A stretch of 32,926 bases of DNA, taken from positions 1 to 32,926 of the forward strand of contig JAFUPI010000044.1 in the NCBI GenBank assembly GCA_017481285.1, in the 5' to 3' direction. The DNA is from Agathobacter sp. (lineage in GTDB: Bacteria > Bacillota > Clostridia > Lachnospirales > Lachnospiraceae). A model generated the notes under the pieces. It did not search any database, was not told the DNA's origin, and saw only the letters and a program-made list of their open reading frames with translations. Made by a program: the position numbers and the translations under genes. How positions within the stretch are numbered: position 1 is the stretch's first letter; each line of letters begins with the position of its first letter. Positions 4,274 to 20,689 of the stretch are shown here, piece by piece.

Positions 4274-4286
4274 ACTAATTCTTTAA

Positions 4287-4367
4287 TGCGGGTGACAGGA
4301 CTTGAACCTGCACGTCGGGGACACCAGAACCTAAATCTGGCGCGTCTGCCAATTCCGCCACACCCGC
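4287..4367 (-). tRNA. tRNA-Leu (anticodon UAG)
   Basis: The 81-base gene folds with acceptor arms GCGGGTG and CACCCGC, a long variable arm as expected for tRNA-Leu, and the anticodon loop TTTAGGT (anticodon TAG, reading CUA). CCA is not encoded. This gene is the integration site of the element to its right: bases 4328-4367 and the following A are repeated at 9485-9525. Its 3' half is therefore chromosomal, while its present 5' upstream DNA belongs to the element. Confidence 0.95.
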
Positions 4368-4368
4368 A
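4328..4368. repeat. Left attachment site copy (41-bp direct repeat)
   Basis: This stretch is identical to 9485-9525. It covers the tRNA-Leu anticodon arm, D-arm and 5' acceptor strand plus one base. The base on each side differs between the two copies (4327 G against 9484 C, and 4369 A against 9526 C). This is the signature of an att core duplicated by site-specific integration. Confidence 0.9.
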
Positions 4369-4399
4369 AATCACTAGTATTTATGCGGCTTTCCAAGAG

Positions 4400-4436
4400 C
4401 CGCGCAAGATTATTTGTTGTCACTCCGCGCAAGATT
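4400..4436. repeat. Two 12-bp direct repeats, putative integrase arm sites
   Basis: CCGCGCAAGATT occurs at 4400-4411 and again at 4425-4436, 25 bases apart. Eleven bases of it recur in inverse orientation at the other end of the element (9403-9413). Their position just inside both ends suits arm-type binding sites of a tyrosine integrase; binding is inferred. Confidence 0.55.
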
Positions 4437-4474
4437 CCTTTATTTGGCGAATCTGGCGCGGTTGCGACCTAATT

Positions 4475-4503
4475 AAGATACCATTTTAGGGGTTATTTGT
4501 CAA
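4475..4503 (-). promoter_or_regulatory. Candidate element-borne promoter for tRNA-Leu
   Basis: On the minus strand: TTGACA (4498-4503), a 17-base spacer and TATCTT (4475-4480), about 100 bases upstream of the tRNA 5' end. If real, the element supplies the promoter for the tRNA gene it interrupts. A short partial copy of the att sequence (AATCTGGCGCG, 4450-4460) lies in the leader. Confidence 0.4.
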
Positions 4504-4506
4504 CCT

Positions 4507-5067
4507 TTATAACCCCATTTCTTTTACTCTTCGATAGAAAGTATTTGGCTTTAAATTCAACTCTTTCATGGCGGCGGTTGCAGTTATTTCTCCTGCGCGC
4601 CATTTGCCACATAACACTTTAAATTCTTCCTCATTTATGTCTACTGGCTTGCGTCCTTTATACTTGCCCTCACTCTTTGCAATCTCAATTCCCTCGCGTT
4701 GGCGTTCTAAAATATTTTCTCTTTCTAATTCAGCAAGCGCACCAAATACTGTCAACATAAATCTTCCTTGTGGAGTAGTAGTATCAATGTTTTCTTTTAA
4801 CGATACAAACTCAACACTTTTTTCTGTCAGTTCGGAAACGATTGATAATAAGTCTCTTGTGTTTCTTGCAATTCTTGAAATGCTTTCTACGATTACAATA
4901 TCTCCTGCACGAACAAAAGACATCATTTCTTTGAACGCGGCGCGGTCTGTGTTTTTTCCACTTGCTTTATCAGTAAATACTTTTTCTGCGTTTTGTTCTT
5001 CCATCATTTTTAATTGTCTCGCTTCGTTCTGCTCAATAGTAGAGCAACGCACATAACCAACTCTCAT
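4507..5067 (-). CDS. Small serine recombinase (resolvase/invertase family)
   Basis: A 186-residue protein of the Tn3-resolvase/DNA-invertase type. The N-terminal catalytic domain starts MRVGYVRCS, placing the nucleophilic serine at residue 9. Other family blocks are DKASGKNTDRAAF (about 33-45), the arginine-containing VESISRIARNTRDLL (about 60-74) and the dimer helix around FGALAELEREN (about 108-118). The basic arm KGRKP leads to a short C-terminal helix-turn-helix (about 140-183), giving the normal length for the family. It lies inside the left end of the element, with its promoter -35 box overlapping one copy of a 13-bp inverted repeat. It could resolve, invert or excise, or act as an accessory to the integrase. 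No invertible segment is evident. Confidence 0.9.
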   Translation of the reverse strand: MRVGYVRCSTIEQNEARQLKMMEEQNAEKVFTDKASGKNTDRAAFKEMMSFVRAGDIVIVESISRIARNTRDLLSIVSELTEKSVEFVSLKENIDTTTPQGRFMLTVFGALAELERENILERQREGIEIAKSEGKYKGRKPVDINEEEFKVLCGKWRAGEITATAAMKELNLKPNTFYRRVKEMGL

Positions 5068-5099
5068 TTTGTTGTTTCCTCTCTTGTTTTGTTGTATTT

Positions 5100-5128
5100 A
5101 TATTACCACAAAACCAAAAGTATGTCAA
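5100..5128 (-). promoter_or_regulatory. Promoter of the serine recombinase
   Basis: On the minus strand: TTGACA (5123-5128), a 17-base spacer and TAATAT (5100-5105), about 30 bases before the start codon. The -35 box overlaps the repeat TCAATAGGGTATA at 5125-5137, which suggests repression or autoregulation. Confidence 0.65.
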
Positions 5129-5231
5129 TAGGGTATATTTGTATTTTGCAATATTTCAAATACACAAAACCAATTCTAATGACATATAAATACACTCTAT
5201 TTCATTCTGTCATTGGGGTATACCCTATTGA
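5125..5231. repeat. 13-bp inverted repeat over divergent -35 boxes
   Basis: TCAATAGGGTATA (5125-5137) is repeated in inverse orientation at 5219-5231. Each copy overlaps a -35-like hexamer reading outward: TTGACA on the minus strand and TTGAAA (5228-5233) on the plus strand. The pair could be an operator pair or recombinase subsites. The rest of the 375-base gap (5068-5442) shows AT-rich sequence and no gene. Confidence 0.6.
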
Positions 5232-5353
5232 AACAATAAAATAAGTCATATTTACATAAATTCCAAGATATTCTATCGTATTTTGTGTTATGCTACGCTG
5301 ATTTCAATAGAATCCAATAAAATCTTTCGTATTATGTTAGATTATGCCTATTT

Positions 5354-5384
5354 TTGCGAATTGCAACGGAATTTCCGTTATAAT
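5354..5384 (+). promoter_or_regulatory. Promoter with operator O1 (AACGGA-ATT-TCCGTT)
   Basis: TATAAT (5379-5384) with a possible TTGCGA -35 (5354-5359, 19-base spacer) reads toward the gene at 5443. The palindrome AACGGA ATT TCCGTT (5365-5379) lies between the boxes. The same palindrome with the same flank (AATTCAA) is found at 6728-6756, so the two sites probably share one repressor. Confidence 0.6.
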
Positions 5385-5442
5385 TCAACATTTTCTTACT
5401 AAATATTGTAAAATTAAGAAAAAAACAAAGGAGAATATATCC

Positions 5443-5670
5443 ATGAGAATTACAATTGACACAGACAAAGGTATTTTCATTGTACCTAACACATTTAACG
5501 CTAATCTTGCTAAACAAAACGATGTATTAAAAAAAGCCGGTGTAGATAAAGAAATCACACCTAAACAGTTTATTGAGGACGCAATCAAGGACGCTTTCAA
5601 ACGCCCAATCCTAACCCAAGAGCAAGCCAAGGAATGGAATCCTGATTTAGAAAGTCAGATGGCTAAATAA
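5443..5670 (+). CDS. Small element protein of unknown function (75 aa)
   Basis: The start is the ATG at 5443, because AAAGGAG lies about 10 bases upstream; a longer in-frame reading to 5344 crosses the promoter and operator and is not credible. The 75-residue soluble protein begins MRITIDTDKGIF and is rich in charged and short helical segments (ITPKQFIEDAIKDAFKR). I recognise no domain. Its stop overlaps the start of the next gene (TAATG), so the two are probably translationally coupled. The promoter is covered by operator O1, which places it in the regulated lytic/excision-type side of the element. A role in excision control is possible but not shown. Confidence 0.7.
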   Translation: MRITIDTDKGIFIVPNTFNANLAKQNDVLKKAGVDKEITPKQFIEDAIKDAFKRPILTQEQAKEWNPDLESQMAK

Positions 5671-5864
5671 TGGCTACGCGTAAAACTAGACTCCCCAAGA
5701 AAGGTAGTCCAATATCAAGAGCCGAAGCAGAACGTTTTGTAGAATTATACAACAAAATAGGTTGTTATGAAGAGGTTGCAAAAATAACTGGTCGTTGTGC
5801 GAGTTCCGTTAGTAAATGGGTTAAAATCTTACAAGCCGAACAAACTATACGTTTACAAATCTAA
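5670..5864 (+). CDS. Small helix-turn-helix protein (64 aa)
   Basis: A 64-residue basic protein whose central part (about 14-55) reads as a homeodomain-like helix-turn-helix: RAEAERFVELYNKIGCYEEV, then ITGRCASSVSKWVKIL. It starts within the stop codon of the 75-residue gene, so it is in the same transcript and coupled. A strong terminator follows at 5866. Size, basic N-terminus and position next to regulated recombination genes would fit an excisionase or small regulator, but no family assignment can be made from sequence alone. Confidence 0.7.
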   Translation: MATRKTRLPKKGSPISRAEAERFVELYNKIGCYEEVAKITGRCASSVSKWVKILQAEQTIRLQI

Positions 5865-5865
5865 T

Positions 5866-5910
5866 AAAAATAGAGACAGCACTTTCAAACGCTCGGCTGT
5901 CTCTATTTTT
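5866..5910. terminator. Bidirectional terminator
   Basis: Fifteen-base arms (5866-5880 and 5896-5910) are perfectly complementary and carry A and T ends, so the hairpin works in both directions. It separates the convergent HTH gene and the minus-strand membrane protein gene. Confidence 0.88.
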
Positions 5911-5934
5911 TAATTATGCTACAACACCTAAATG

Positions 5935-6684
5935 TTAACTATTCATTAACTTATTAAGACTCTCTACAAGTTTCTTTGCCTCATTACCCTTTGGCTTAAA
6001 ATAATCAACCTGCTTATTATCTTCATAACAGTACAATCTATCTATTTCCACTTTCATATTTTGAGTTTCTATAGCCAAACCAACTGTCTTACGTTTTTCC
6101 GATACATCAAGTCCTCCATTAGCATTTATCTCCACTGCTTTGGCTGCTGAATATGCACCTGCACCAATCCCGCCTAATGCATTACCTAACATAGCCGCTC
6201 TTCCAACATCCATCTGCTCTTTACCATGTACGGTGTATTCTTTTTTATATGTTTTAAATTCAATTTTTCCACCATATGGCGAAGATACATATTCAACCAA
6301 TTCTCCTAGATGGTTTATTAGTACGCAACACTTTTTCGAAATGGCACCATAAATAATAGACGTTGTATAATTACCGCCACTTCCCTTAAACACCAAAAAG
6401 ATACCATCCTCCAAAACTGGCTGAACATCTTTACTATCTTTATAATTAGAAAGATATTGTGTCATCTTTTGCACATTTTCTTGATTTTCTTTTGATACCT
6501 GTTCGTTAATTCTTTTTTTCGCCTTACTCTCCAAATTTGATGCAATTAACCAAAACGGAACCATTAAAACCACCCACATTAGCATTATCGCTAAAATAGA
6601 ACCATCAAAAAACATATAACCAATAGCAAATGCTATCATAAGCGGAATCACCATTACCCACGTTGTATTATTCTTCTGTTGCAT
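5935..6684 (-). CDS. Two-TM protein of unknown function, element cargo
   Basis: A 249-residue protein with two hydrophobic segments near the N-terminus (about residues 9-26 and 28-47). A charged helical stretch (about 50-85) and a probably cytoplasmic domain follow. That domain contains a short Gly-rich segment (GNALGGIGAGAYSAA, about 168-182) resembling a glycine zipper, and a beta-rich C-terminus. I do not recognise the family. It is the only large gene in the element that is neither recombination nor regulation, so it is the likely cargo or immunity function; superinfection exclusion or phage defence are possibilities without direct evidence. Its promoter (TTGAAT, 17 bases, TAAAAT) has operator O2 filling the spacer, so it is probably repressed by the divergent XRE gene. 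Confidence 0.75.
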   Translation of the reverse strand: MQQKNNTTWVMVIPLMIAFAIGYMFFDGSILAIMLMWVVLMVPFWLIASNLESKAKKRINEQVSKENQENVQKMTQYLSNYKDSKDVQPVLEDGIFLVFKGSGGNYTTSIIYGAISKKCCVLINHLGELVEYVSSPYGGKIEFKTYKKEYTVHGKEQMDVGRAAMLGNALGGIGAGAYSAAKAVEINANGGLDVSEKRKTVGLAIETQNMKVEIDRLYCYEDNKQVDYFKPKGNEAKKLVESLNKLMNS

Positions 6685-6726
6685 AATTTACCCTCGTTTC
6701 TTTTCTTTTTTGTTCTCAACACGATT

Positions 6727-6756
6727 ATTTTAACGGATATTCCGTTAAAATTCAAT
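6727..6756 (-). promoter_or_regulatory. Promoter with operator O2 between XRE and membrane-protein genes
   Basis: On the minus strand: TTGAAT (6751-6756), 17 bases and TAAAAT (approximately 6728-6733). A perfect palindrome with ten-base arms, TTTTAACGGA (6728-6737) and TCCGTTAAAA (6741-6750), around TAT fills the spacer. It repeats the AACGGA-N3-TCCGTT core of O1. Confidence 0.7.
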
Positions 6757-6800
6757 GTTTGATATCAAATTATGTAATATTGTGGCAGAGGTGGATAAAT

Positions 6801-7025
6801 ATGGAATATACCCAAAGAATACGTAATTTGAGAGAAGATAATGACTACAATCAAACTTTTGTTGCAAAGGCAATCCATGTGGCACAAACAACCTATTCAG
6901 ATTATGAAAAAGGCAAGGTACGAATGCCGATTGAAAGCGCTATTGCATTAGCAAAATTTTATAATGTGGACTTGAATTTCTTAATGGGAATAAGTGATAT
7001 TAGAAATGAGTTTCCTAAAAAATAA
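6801..7025 (+). CDS. XRE-family (Cro/cI-type) repressor, 74 aa
   Basis: The start chosen is the ATG at 6801, preceded by AGAGGTGG; a longer in-frame reading from 6759 lacks a ribosome site. The 74 residues are almost all one XRE helix-turn-helix domain: residues about 5-60, with NQTFVAKAIHVAQTTYSDYEKG as the HTH core and the characteristic DLNFLMGISD end. There is no protease or dimerisation domain. It is divergent from the two-TM protein with operator O2 between them, and a strong terminator follows. It is the natural candidate for binding O1 and O2 and holding the element's genes off; this is inferred from position. Confidence 0.88.
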   Translation: MEYTQRIRNLREDNDYNQTFVAKAIHVAQTTYSDYEKGKVRMPIESAIALAKFYNVDLNFLMGISDIRNEFPKK

Positions 7026-7062
7026 AGCGGAAGTAATACGATATTATTGCTTTCGCTTTTTT
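7024..7062 (+). terminator. Terminator of the XRE gene
   Basis: A 15-base-pair stem with two G-T pairs (7024-7038 with 7042-7058) starts in the stop codon and is followed by a run of T. From here to 7323 there is no credible gene. A minus-strand 30-codon reading (7083-7175) with a GGGGG site was considered and set aside. Confidence 0.8.
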
Positions 7063-7257
7063 GTGTAATAATAATTGTTTCTTTACGATAACGATGACGA
7101 AGAAACAAAATACAACTTAGTAGGAATACGAGCCACGCATACTTCAAAAACTATTACCACTTTTCTTTTTCCCATAATATACCCCCGTCCTTTTCATTTA
7201 TGTTATCCGTGGTCTACGAGAGCCGTCCTTTAATTGGTTTTTATTAAAAAATTTTTG

Positions 7258-7263
7258 TATAAT
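7258..7263 (+). promoter_or_regulatory. Candidate -10 box of the 7324-8308 operon
   Basis: TATAAT at 7258-7263, after TTTTTG, lies about 60 bases before the first gene. The -35 (TTGGTT at 7234-7239, 18-base spacer) is poor. Confidence 0.4.
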
Positions 7264-7323
7264 ATATTTATGGAAAGTAAATAAGAAATTTTTCAAACAA
7301 CAATAGAAAGGGGGCAACCAAAA

Positions 7324-7572
7324 GTGAATGATTACAGAATTTATGATATTCTAGCGCAACTGGCAAATGAACAAGGTAACTATGGTTTAGCACTTCAATG
7401 CAACCACGAAAAAATGATTTCCATGTACGACCAAGAGAATGAAAAACAAAAACTCATAAACGAAATCACAAACGAGGTTCTAAAGCGAATTTCTGTATCA
7501 ACTGATACAAATAACGCTATAAAGCAAATAGACGGCTTAAATGCGGCTCTAAAGCGTTTAGGCGTACAATAA
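7324..7572 (+). CDS. Small helical element protein (82 aa), unknown
   Basis: Starts with GTG, supported by AGGGGG about 9 bases upstream. The 82-residue protein is predicted to be mostly helical: DILAQLANEQGNYGLALQ, then a charged segment EKQKLINEITNEVLKRI. It has no membrane segment and no motif that I recognise. It is the first gene of a three-gene plus-strand unit (7324-8308) that lies between the repressor and the integrase, the usual place for replication or mobilisation functions in small elements. Function unknown. Confidence 0.65.
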   Translation: MNDYRIYDILAQLANEQGNYGLALQCNHEKMISMYDQENEKQKLINEITNEVLKRISVSTDTNNAIKQIDGLNAALKRLGVQ

Positions 7573-7591
7573 AGAGAAAAAGGAGAAATAT

Positions 7592-8110
7592 ATGCCGAAT
7601 ACATCACCACATCAAAGAGTGGTACATATACACAGAGAACGCGTCTCGTCCGATTTCTTAGGTATTAAAAACGAGAACTGGAAAGCCGCGAGCCGTACAC
7701 TTGGAGCGCATGCATTAAGACTATATATGTATCTTGCGGCTAATGCGAACAACTTCGAACTTGCGCTCTCGCCTGCTGCCCTAGAGGCGGAAATAGGCAT
7801 GCCACGCTCTACTTATCAAGACCAGTTTAGAAAACTTATCAATTACGGCTATCTAGTACAAAAAAGCAAAAGCAAATTTGACTTTTATGAAACACCACAG
7901 AACGCCACGCGTATAAACCAAGCGAATACGACAGACGGCTATGACTTTGAAAATTATACGGCTATCGTACAAGAGCAAACGAATGTCGCTCTTGAAAAGC
8001 CGTCCGAGGATATAGAAATAAATATAATAAATAACATAAATACTACTATAAATAACGAGCATGAGAAACAAGTTTCTCATGCTCCGATAGTAGAAAAGTA
8101 TGTGTTTTAA
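7592..8110 (+). CDS. Putative winged-helix, replication-initiator-like protein (172 aa)
   Basis: An AAGGAG site precedes the ATG. Residues about 25-105 look like a winged helix: LGAHALRLYMYLAANANNF, then LSPAALEAEIGMPRSTYQDQFRKLINYGYL as helix-turn-helix, then a short wing (FDFYETP). The rest is a low-complexity, Asn/Ile-rich tail (INIINNINTTINNE, about 140-157) with no domain that I recognise. Winged-helix proteins of this outline occur in small mobile elements of Clostridia as presumed replication or regulatory proteins, but catalytic Rep motifs are absent. It is the second gene of the 7324-8308 unit. The DNA-binding call is moderate; the replication role is speculation. Confidence 0.7.
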   Translation: MPNTSPHQRVVHIHRERVSSDFLGIKNENWKAASRTLGAHALRLYMYLAANANNFELALSPAALEAEIGMPRSTYQDQFRKLINYGYLVQKSKSKFDFYETPQNATRINQANTTDGYDFENYTAIVQEQTNVALEKPSEDIEINIINNINTTINNEHEKQVSHAPIVEKYVF

Positions 8111-8122
8111 GGGGGATAATCA

Positions 8123-8308
8123 ATGAGTACACAAGATATGACTAATTTGATACAAGAAATACACGGACAAATTCTCTTTGACAGAGAACCTAAAGATTAT
8201 GGGGAACTCTTGGCGGCGATTGAGGAATTGCATTATTTCCTGCGTGAAGAACTACGCGTAGTTCCTATTGAGTTTGAGAGAACGCCGCAAGCAGACTTTG
8301 ACTTCTAA
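8123..8308 (+). CDS. Small acidic element protein (61 aa), unknown
   Basis: An AAGGGGG site lies about 7 bases before the ATG. The 61-residue acidic, helical protein (core DYGELLAAIEELHYFLREEL) has no recognised domain. It is the last gene of the three-gene unit, and a terminator follows 11 bases after its stop. The coding DNA contains a perfect 16-base palindrome at 8249-8264. Its translation is supported mainly by the ribosome site and operon position. Confidence 0.65.
   Translation: MSTQDMTNLIQEIHGQILFDREPKDYGELLAAIEELHYFLREELRVVPIEFERTPQADFDF
8249..8264. repeat. Perfect 16-base palindrome within a coding region
   Basis: GAACTACGCGTAGTTC reads the same on both strands. It lies in the 61-codon gene, so it must be compatible with coding. 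It could be a protein-binding site; I saw no second copy in the window. Confidence 0.5.
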
Positions 8309-8319
8309 ATAACTACTTT

Positions 8320-8349
8320 GAGCGAGAGCCGTGCTCTCGCTCATTATTT
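8320..8349 (+). terminator. Terminator of the 7324-8308 unit
   Basis: Ten-base perfect arms GAGCGAGAGC (8320-8329) and GCTCTCGCTC (8333-8342) around CGT are followed by ATTATTTATT. It separates these genes from the convergent integrase. Confidence 0.8.
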
Positions 8350-8402
8350 ATTATCCCTCTGCCGTGTGTCTCGAAATATACCGATATATGCCGTTGCGTA
8401 TT

Positions 8403-9365
8403 TTATGCTGAATAATTCACTATCTTTCTTTTGGTTGGTGTATAATTTTTTCTCTTAAAATTATCCAATGGGTTGAACATATCCAAGTCCGCCGCAATAT
8501 CTGTTCCGTAAAGATTTACATACTTCATTGTCATATCAATGGTTTTATGATTAAGCAAATGTTGTAGTTTAACTGGGTTGCCACCTGCGATAATATAATT
8601 CTTTGCAAAGGTGTGTCTAAACAAATGAATAGAAGTTTTTTCAACACCTCTTTTTCTATTGTATTCTGCAATAGAATCTTCTGCACTTCTTACTCTTAAT
8701 TTCTTCCCCTCATACTCTGGGAAAAGATAATCTTCATCATGCAACGCGGATATACTTATATATTCTTGCAAGATTTTAATAATGGCAGAAGATAACGGCA
8801 TATACTTTTGAATCTTATCTTTATTCCATACCAATTTAACTTTTGCGGATAATAAATCTAAATCTTTGACTTTGATATTCAAAACAGTGCTTAATCTCTG
8901 TCCAGTAGCAAAGAAGTAGTTTATCATGCACCAATTCCGCAACTCTACCCAATTATCACTCTTGGGTTTTTCTAACAACAGTTTCATTTCTTCATCACTA
9001 TAAGGTTCTTTGAGTTCTGTTTCAAATTTCGGTATGGTTATCTCTAACTGTTCCATATAACCGCGTGAGTTGCAGAACTTAAAGAATCTTCTCAAATGCA
9101 CCATAATAGTCGCAACTGATACCGCCTTATTTCCTCTATCTTCACAATACAACATATATTTATCCATTGTACGGAGAGTAATATCACTCAATATAGTTTC
9201 TTCTCCAACCCATTTAATAAAAGCATTTACATAGTCTTGATAACCTTTTTGTGTTGCTTTTGCTAAACCTTTGACGCGGTTATTCTCAAAAAATTCTTCT
9301 GCGGCGTCTCTAATTGTGCGCTCCTCAATTTCAACAGTTTTAATAATTTTTCTTCCTCTTGGCAT
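8403..9365 (-). CDS. Tyrosine recombinase / integrase
   Basis: A 320-residue phage-type integrase. The start is taken as the ATG at 9365, which has AAGGAAC just upstream, not the TTG at 9386. The SAM-like core-binding domain spans about 20-110 and the catalytic domain about 120-300. Visible catalytic residues are the arginine in ATGQRLSTVLNIKVKDL, the lysine region WNKDKIQKYMPLS, the HLFRHTF box, the following H in LLNHKTIDMT, and the nucleophilic tyrosine in KYVNLY. It is the last gene before the right end, close to attR, as usual for the enzyme that integrates an element into a tRNA gene. Its upstream DNA contains an inverted-repeat pair and a putative arm site (9403-9413), so the integrase may repress its own gene. 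Confidence 0.93.
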   Translation of the reverse strand: MPRGRKIIKTVEIEERTIRDAAEEFFENNRVKGLAKATQKGYQDYVNAFIKWVGEETILSDITLRTMDKYMLYCEDRGNKAVSVATIMVHLRRFFKFCNSRGYMEQLEITIPKFETELKEPYSDEEMKLLLEKPKSDNWVELRNWCMINYFFATGQRLSTVLNIKVKDLDLLSAKVKLVWNKDKIQKYMPLSSAIIKILQEYISISALHDEDYLFPEYEGKKLRVRSAEDSIAEYNRKRGVEKTSIHLFRHTFAKNYIIAGGNPVKLQHLLNHKTIDMTMKYVNLYGTDIAADLDMFNPLDNFKRKNYTPTKRKIVNYSA

Positions 9366-9383
9366 AAAAAAGTTCCTTTCGTA

Positions 9384-9413
9384 CAAGATTATTTTTTCAA
9401 ATAATCTTGCGCG
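9384..9413. repeat. Inverted repeat and arm-like site upstream of integrase
   Basis: CAAGATTATT (9384-9393) and AATAATCTTG (9400-9409) form a perfect ten-base inverted repeat. Its right half continues into AATCTTGCGCG (9403-9413), the reverse complement of the two repeats near the left end. Confidence 0.6.
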
Positions 9414-9484
9414 TCAAGGAACAATAATAATTTCCAAAATATTAGTAATTTCAAGGGTTTGGACTGGATACGAAGTAGCCAGTC

Positions 9485-9525
9485 AACCTAAATCTGGCGC
9501 GTCTGCCAATTCCGCCACACCCGCA
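9485..9525. repeat. Right attachment site copy (tRNA-Leu 5' half remnant)
   Basis: Identical to 4328-4368. It is a severed tRNA-Leu half (anticodon arm to 5' end) left beside the original chromosomal upstream DNA. A TATAAT on the minus strand at 9547-9552 lies at the right distance to be the tRNA's original -10 box. Confidence 0.9.
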
Positions 9526-9546
9526 CATTTACTAGACTACATATTA

Positions 9547-9552: not shown

Positions 9553-9666
9553 TGCATCAGCAAGTGATATATTACCATTTTCACTCCTTAAAATCAAGAC
9601 ACTTTTCCCAATTTATTGAAAAGAAAATTTACATATCTAACAATTTCCTTTTTCCTCCAAATCGTG

Positions 9667-20591: not shown

Positions 20592-20614
20592 ACATTATGT
20601 TGCTACCGCAACAG

Positions 20615-20689
20615 GGTGGATAATGGGATTCGAACCCATGGCCTCCAGAGCCACAATCTGGCGCGCTAACCAACTGCGCTATACCCACC
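20615..20689 (-). tRNA. tRNA-His (anticodon GUG)
   Basis: Anticodon loop TTGTGGC between CCAGA and TCTGG. An extra G at position -1 faces C73, the identity feature of tRNA-His. CCA is not encoded. Confidence 0.95.

Follow-up and report, generated by a model that had tools for sequence, protein, structure and literature searches.

A 5.2-kb integrative element in the 5′ half of a tRNA-Leu(TAG) gene of Agathobacter sp. that appears to supply its target tRNA with a new promoter

Integration into the 5′ half of a tRNA gene is already known, but rare. In the passages of PMC8371274 on which we rely, rebuilt bacterial tRNA genes retain the original promoter with few exceptions, and archaeal pTN3-type integrases are described as using the tRNA 5′ half, with comparable cases seldom seen in bacteria; an excerpt of PMC5495485 adds that the pTN3 tRNA-Leu is separated from its original promoter. 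The Islander table, as excerpted from PMC4383910, contains 159 islands with a 5′ tRNA fragment versus 3760 with a 3′ fragment. Integrase promoters overlapping attL junctions (PMC2951348) and phages that bring a whole tRNA gene and show tRNA-dependent lysogeny (PMC10865867) are also described in the respective excerpts. Here we consider a 5.2-kb element integrated in a tRNA-Leu(TAG) gene of Agathobacter sp., within a stretch of 32,926 nt (contig JAFUPI010000044.1 of assembly GCA_017481285.1), called the window in the following. Elements in tRNA genes normally leave the native promoter in place; here, transcription of an apparently single-copy leucine tRNA appears to have been taken over by the element. 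In the literature excerpts searched we did not see a bacterial 5′-half element with a described replacement promoter, which is no proof of absence.

The element (4328-9528) is bounded by two direct repeats of 44 bp, at 4328-4371 and 9485-9528, identical at 43 of the 44 positions. ARAGORN placed a tRNA-Leu(TAG) gene at 4286-4368 on the minus strand, with the left repeat inside it, and the repeat consists of the first 41 nt of this gene, spanning its 5′ end to the anticodon loop, and of three bases upstream; it is therefore not a chance repeat. The intact tRNA gene stands at the integrase-distal end of the element. The GC content is 35% in the element, and 38 and 40% in the flanks. The features of the two ends are the following:

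4286..4368, minus strand: tRNA-Leu(TAG), regenerated, with the 3′ half from the host and the 5′ half from the element (ARAGORN; empty site L042)
4328..4371, minus strand: tRNA-side attachment repeat, core TTTAGGT corresponding to the anticodon loop (repeat comparison)
4475..4503, minus strand: outward sigma-70-like promoter-like sequence TTGACA-17-TATCTT, 106 nt before the tRNA (consensus match)
9485..9528, minus strand: integrase-side attachment repeat, the displaced host 5′ half of the tRNA (repeat comparison, L042 alignment)
9569..9597, minus strand: native tRNA promoter TTGATT-17-TAATAT, which now points into the integrase leader (conserved in empty site L042)

For comparison with an empty site we chose the genome in which the flanking MFS gene has its best match (91%). 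Its locus L042 (G014:C31) has an uninterrupted tRNA-Leu(TAG) between an MFS gene and a chemoreceptor gene, with a DNA identity to the window flanks of 83.5% and 78.9%, and alignment of the window to it placed the insertion point in the anticodon loop. The boxes TTGATT-17-TAATAT are identical in the two sequences; they precede the tRNA in L042, but in the window they are followed by the half tRNA displaced by the insertion, and then by the integrase. The element therefore separates the tRNA from this promoter. A larger surrounding element was also considered and rejected: the genes directly outside the repeats are host genes that match L042. An earlier reading of the letters alone (the sequence-only reading) had described a discrete element bounded by direct repeats in tRNA-Leu, and had looked for its confirmation to an empty site in a close relative and to other elements with the same kind of ends; both were found, the latter in tRNA-Leu(TAG) (L026) and in tRNA-His (L027), and the chance sharing of repeats with a longer element, which it had also named as a refutation, is excluded by the origin of the repeat in the tRNA and by the adjoining host genes.

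A match of at least 85% to tRNA-Leu(TAG) was present once per genome in 11 of the 12 genomes searched and absent from G048, which is 68% complete; full-length matches of lower identity (71-76%) presumably represent the remaining leucine tRNAs. From these matches the gene is apparently single-copy. As it looks single-copy and has lost its native promoter, something must transcribe it.

Relatives of the integrase at 83-86% identity were found in two of 61 other genomes of the genus, and a sample of 396 other genomes of the family contained three further, more distant integrases at E up to 1e-70. A scan of genome contigs gave four loci, two of which lay on contigs already found within the genus, and an initial scan of viral contigs gave one. 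The layout of the window is shared by L026 (39-nt repeat in tRNA-Leu(TAG)), by L027 (exact 44-nt repeat in tRNA-His) and by L025, the far end of which is L171. The distance between the promoter-like sequence and the tRNA is 106 nt in the window, 106 in L026, 109 in L027 and 105 in L171. In L027 this sequence precedes tRNA-His and tRNA-Gln, 42 bp apart, of a split tRNA run, so that a donated promoter would stand before two tRNA genes. The tRNA-His gene of the window (20614-20688) holds the core CGCGCCAGATT at 20655-20665, the same 11 bp as in tRNA-Leu(TAG); given this shared core and the use of tRNA-His by the L027 element, it is a second potential site in this genome.

A similar sequence was seen in two phage contexts. 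The prophage L065/L083 of genome G328, a distant relative of about 17 kb with head protein, portal and terminase genes, has TTGACA-17-TATAAT 88 nt before an intact tRNA-Leu. Six more tRNA genes lie 1.15 kb beyond that tRNA-Leu with an open reading frame (ORF) on the opposite strand between, which makes their joint transcription uncertain. At this locus (G328:C1) the tRNA genes Pro-Gly-Arg-His-Lys stand on one side of the prophage, and Leu followed by Pro-Gly-Arg-His-Gln-Lys on the other, as if a cluster had been duplicated. In phage contig L061 the order runs from terminase and portal genes through TTGACA-17-TATACT and a tRNA-Ser 5′ half (identified by eye) to the integrase gene (int), the arrangement expected of a circular form.

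In viral contigs, 219 related integrase loci were found, of which 80 were kept and 38 were listed by hand and compared to a library of 48 tRNAs of 21 kinds. A match to a tRNA half was present in 16 of the 38 and absent in 22. We read L093, L094, L101, L106 and L127 as 5′-half sites, and L089, L095, L100, L103, L112, L138, L143 and L156 as 3′-half sites, which were used as controls; L117 was left out (15-nt match only), and L097 and L134 hold whole tRNAs. L061, missed by the tRNA library, and L065 were read as 5′-half by eye, and L063, L064 and L066 follow intact tRNAs. We scored outward promoters in a slot from -60 to -170. All nine chosen 5′-half sites had one, with scores of 9.5-12.5 (mean 10.83) and a spacer of 17 bp in every case. 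The mean for 9000 random segments was 8.45, and none of 100,000 resampled sets of nine reached 10.83. The reverse strands at the 5′-half sites scored 7-9, and the eight 3′-half sites, in the matching slot, 5.5-9.5 (Mann-Whitney p=0.0004 versus the 5′-half sites).

Three further features lie between the repeats and the outermost genes:

4401..4460: core-like integrase motif CGCGCMAGATT in three copies (4401 plus, 4426 plus, 4450 minus), with similar spacing in L026 and L027
9372..9422, minus strand: integrase-leader hairpin with the Shine-Dalgarno sequence in its 3′ arm, then a U run and ATG; two integrase motifs in inverted orientation form the inner stem
9461..9484, minus strand: short hairpin with a CUUCG loop, immediately behind the half tRNA, seen in five elements

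The motif CGCGCMAGATT recurs at both ends of the element, and the left half-site of the core in the tRNA is itself a copy of it. On the far side its steps are 67-68, 24-25 and 24 bp (window, L026, L027), and on the integrase side 87-99 bp (five elements). A hairpin holding the Shine-Dalgarno sequence, followed by 6-7 U and ATG, was present in the integrase leader of all six elements considered (the window and five relatives), with folding z values from -4.3 to -8.2, versus -3.0 to +0.2 for 16 leaders of other genes. The outer stem, with the Shine-Dalgarno sequence, varies among elements yet pairs; the inner stem can be accounted for by two integrase sites in inverted orientation. A promoter inside this hairpin, suspected by eye in the window and L025, was dropped, as its conservation was not seen by eye. 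The CUUCG-loop hairpin follows the displaced half tRNA in all five small 5′-half elements seen (window, L025, L026, L027, L029), with stems that differ and still pair. The integrase ORF is open, and the residues that we take to be catalytic are invariant among six aligned integrases. Another motif, AAACCGCATAAA (4380-4391 in the window), recurs around the core, on both of its sides and on both strands, and is a possible site for a directionality factor: it had 17 matches with at most 3 mismatches in 16 attachment regions, none of them on the integrase side of the window, and shuffles gave a mean of 2.8 and a maximum of 8.

The nine ORFs of the element were scanned against Pfam, PHROGs and NCBIfam with E up to 1:

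4507..5067, minus strand: serine recombinase, 186 aa, resolvase type (Pfam Resolvase, 9.9e-44)
5443..5670, plus strand: orfA, 75 aa, conserved in relatives (comparison of relatives)
5670..5864, plus strand: orfB, 64 aa, resembling helix-turn-helix proteins below the Pfam cut-off; a candidate regulator or directionality factor
5935..6684, minus strand: membrane protein in a variable (cargo) position (profile scans)
6801..7025, plus strand: Cro/cI-type repressor, HTH_3 (Pfam)
7324..7572, plus strand: small ORF
7592..8110, plus strand: winged-helix protein resembling phage replication initiators (PHROG DnaD-like/O-like, 6.5e-7)
8123..8308, plus strand: small ORF
8403..9365, minus strand: tyrosine integrase, 320 aa (Pfam Phage_integrase, 6.5e-27)

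The scans thus agreed with the sequence-only reading on a tyrosine integrase at one end, a small serine recombinase at the other and repression and winged-helix genes between them, and also on the lack of recognised transfer or capsid genes: no relaxase, coupling protein or capsid family matched any of the nine proteins. As expected for a satellite, integrase and repressor are present and structural genes are absent from these scans, apart from weak matches to tail families (7324 ORF, tail fibre, E 0.014; membrane protein, minor tail, E 0.15); the membrane protein also had a weak match to a holin family (E 0.085), and orfB to a terminase small subunit (E 0.042). A defence cargo was considered and rejected, as ten proteins gave two weak matches only in PADLOC (E 0.013 and 0.042). 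The winged-helix gene had no match in the 61 other genomes of the genus nor in the viral pattern scan, and its protein had chance-level matches only to solved structures; the single relative found is in L057 (30%). In named phages or plasmids, no match to the integrase was found at E 1e-30.

The four relatives L025, L026, L027 and L029 have a common gene order: integrase, opposite-strand repressor, differing middle genes, orfA and serine recombinase. Among them, orfB is clear in L027 and L029 only. Between integrase and repressor L029 has a differing gene, and the window has the winged-helix block; L029 also carries a protein with an HSDR_N domain. The serine recombinases of the relatives are 90-98% like that of L025, and that of the window is about 30-36% identical to these. 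Locus L028, with an integrase 69% identical, follows an intact tRNA-Leu(CAG) and has genes like type I restriction-modification (named by eye); judged from one end, it appears to have the ordinary polarity. Finally, the contig of L057 has relatives of the integrase (61% identity), orfA (41%), orfB (45%) and the winged-helix gene, and also the terminase small (TerS) and large (TerL) subunits, which ties the element to phages. At L057:4063-8129 a long ORF, repetitive and fibre-like by eye, comes directly after the TerL gene, and portal and head genes are lacking between the two.

Of the two recombinases, the integrase handles the tRNA site; the serine recombinase matches, among solved structures (PDB), DNA invertases and the gamma-delta, Tn3 and Sin resolvases. 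Resolvases of the Tn3/Sin type have about 185 aa, with the catalytic domain at the N-terminus and a helix-turn-helix domain at the C-terminus; in the present protein of 186 aa the Resolvase domain covers residues 3-136, the alignment to gamma-delta resolvase extends over residues 3-183, and the C-terminal helix-turn-helix is a weak Pfam match. Two res-like features lie just upstream of the gene:

5123..5137, plus strand: res-like half site TGTCAATAGGGTATA
5208..5233: res-like palindrome, a 26-bp near-palindrome with core GGGTATACCC; a similar site precedes an 89% identical recombinase in L073

The L073 gene has TGTCAATAGGGTATACCCAATTGACA upstream of it, and the contigs L074, L077, L078 and L080, with recombinases 57-60% identical, have none or one poor res-like match. 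Allowing up to 6 mismatches, the 32.9-kb window holds a single full res-like site and so no inversion partner, and DNA inversion or cassette switching was rejected on this ground. The simplest role predicted from these likenesses, and the most likely one, is the resolution of multimers. Given the likeness of the protein to resolvases and invertases and the res-like site immediately upstream of its gene, multimer resolution suffices to account for it, and the presence of two recombinase types does not on its own mark a satellite, contrary to what the sequence-only reading had suggested. What stands of its satellite or cryptic element with its own control is that the element is discrete, has its own repressor and no recognised transfer genes, and has relatives with the same backbone. 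Homologues of the SR2 type (54-62%) stand next to terminase genes, in L069 and L070 between TerS and TerL and in L072 after TerS, hence this type also circulates in phages. At L073:2800-3150 the recombinase is followed by an outward promoter-like sequence, an apparent tRNA-Ala 3′ half and a 502-aa ORF like a large serine recombinase (each identified by eye).

After insertion the tRNA is whole and lies beyond the element from its own promoter, the promoter-like end of the element faces the tRNA, and the native promoter faces the integrase. We propose that the promoter of the element keeps the tRNA expressed, and that in the excised circle it would face the integrase across attP, the joined attachment site. 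The leader hairpin, with its Shine-Dalgarno sequence and the U run before ATG, would shield the integrase from transcription at tRNA level by the captured promoter, the serine recombinase would act as a resolvase keeping the circular form monomeric, and spread would depend on another element, most likely a related phage, which is the weakest step. No helper was found, and no systematic search for one was made; mobilisation by a helper is plausible. Taken jointly, we consider this explanation probable. Several points weigh against it. A narrower first slot (about -95 to -150) gave scores of at least 10 in three of five sites (L026 9.5, L083 7.5), with 166 of 10,000 random segments at this level, and the slot was widened to -60 to -170 after this result. 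The nine sites were picked after inspection; L093 and L106 were scored and then left out, their upstream side being host-like, and L094, L101 and L127 were assumed to be attP from their viral-contig context alone, with the tRNA match of L101 extending past the anticodon (by eye). The top 3′-half control (9.5) equals the lowest 5′-half sites, and some controls are GC-rich. All the promoters are predicted consensus matches, and tRNA expression from the element and excision are predicted as well. The source assembly is 71% complete, which leaves room for a second, divergent tRNA-Leu(TAG) copy. Pairing of the Shine-Dalgarno sequence is not specific to integrase leaders (0.96 in the MFS leader, 0.95 in the L026 cI leader), and it was 0.15 for L027 int, where the 62-nt window of the computation cut the stem, and 0.50 for L029 int; with longer leaders both fold over the Shine-Dalgarno sequence. 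Among six distant integrase leaders, folded once without shuffles, a similar hairpin was seen by eye in L063 and L066 and a weaker one in L061, L064 and L065, and the start is uncertain in L058. Moreover, the same hairpin is present in the circle, and if int were locked in both states its production would be unexplained.

The outward promoter could be merely the integrase promoter of the circular form, with tRNA expression incidental or unneeded. Its position before attP would serve the circle too, promoter, half tRNA and int are contiguous in L061, and Pcirc of ICEclc is reportedly a parallel; however, the tRNA looks single-copy, has lost its native promoter and needs some source of transcription, and the eight 3′-half relatives score lower overall in the slot, which makes this account quite improbable. 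That the element is a decayed and immobile prophage remnant would agree with its short size, with the lack of recognised structural genes and with the int, orfA, orfB and winged-helix genes in common with L057 and its terminase genes. We hold this to be unlikely: the integrase is open with invariant catalytic residues, the attachment sites still match at 43 of 44 positions, and four relatives with the same backbone and different middle genes resemble maintained elements, not random decay.

The element is mobile-looking and phage-related, and its content fits a phage-related lifestyle, possibly that of a satellite. Phage packaging need not be the way of transfer: elements mobilised through an oriT only, by the relaxase of another element, exist, and the profile scans recognised no convincing packaging gene. 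Against such conjugative mobilisation, the relatives of its genes are phage genes (SR2-type recombinases by TerS/TerL in L069, L070 and L072, terminase in L057), and we regard it as rather doubtful. Beyond this locus, we give about even chances to a wider proposal, namely that an integrase clade of phages and small elements, in Lachnospiraceae and beyond, has switched between tRNA 3′ and 5′ halves, the 5′ choice going with an outward promoter that serves the tRNA when integrated and int when circular, and with a captured native promoter behind a ribosome-site hairpin. If so, host translation and the state of the element would be wired together by swapped promoters. If promoter donation is true for the window, the tRNA supply would depend on a mobile element, the tolerance of 5′-half integration would be explained, and the locus would be a simple system for testing whether a tRNA promoter switches an integrase, or how the integrase is kept insulated from it.

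Phage-inducible chromosomal islands (PICIs) are small, have an integrase and a repressor, no capsid genes and a phage-like replication module, and carry packaging or capsid-interference genes such as terS, cpm and ppi. The element resembles these satellites in all the former traits; it differs in its size of about 5 kb and in having no convincing gene for a terminase small subunit, primase or capsid interference. Its serine recombinase is like the Tn3/gamma-delta and Sin resolvases in size, sequence family and the res-like site just upstream, whereas DNA invertases match the catalytic part too and accessory sites are putative. Bacterial islands with a 5′ tRNA fragment (PMC4383910) probably have the same integration polarity; promoter replacement is not described in the main text of that source, where the word "promoter" is absent. 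In phages with tRNA-dependent lysogeny, as excerpted from PMC10865867, integration likewise threatens an essential tRNA and the element compensates, but they carry a whole tRNA gene, whereas in the present case the tRNA of the host is rebuilt and, it seems, given a promoter by the element. In its site the element is like the archaeal pTN3-type elements, which in the cited passages (PMC8371274, PMC5495485) have a 41-bp attP/attB in the tRNA-Leu 5′ half and a rebuilt tRNA cut from its original promoter. There integration divides the integrase gene itself, and the tRNA is transcribed from the integrase promoter, whereas in the present element int remains undivided and the promoter-like sequence that faces the tRNA is a separate one, at the opposite end.

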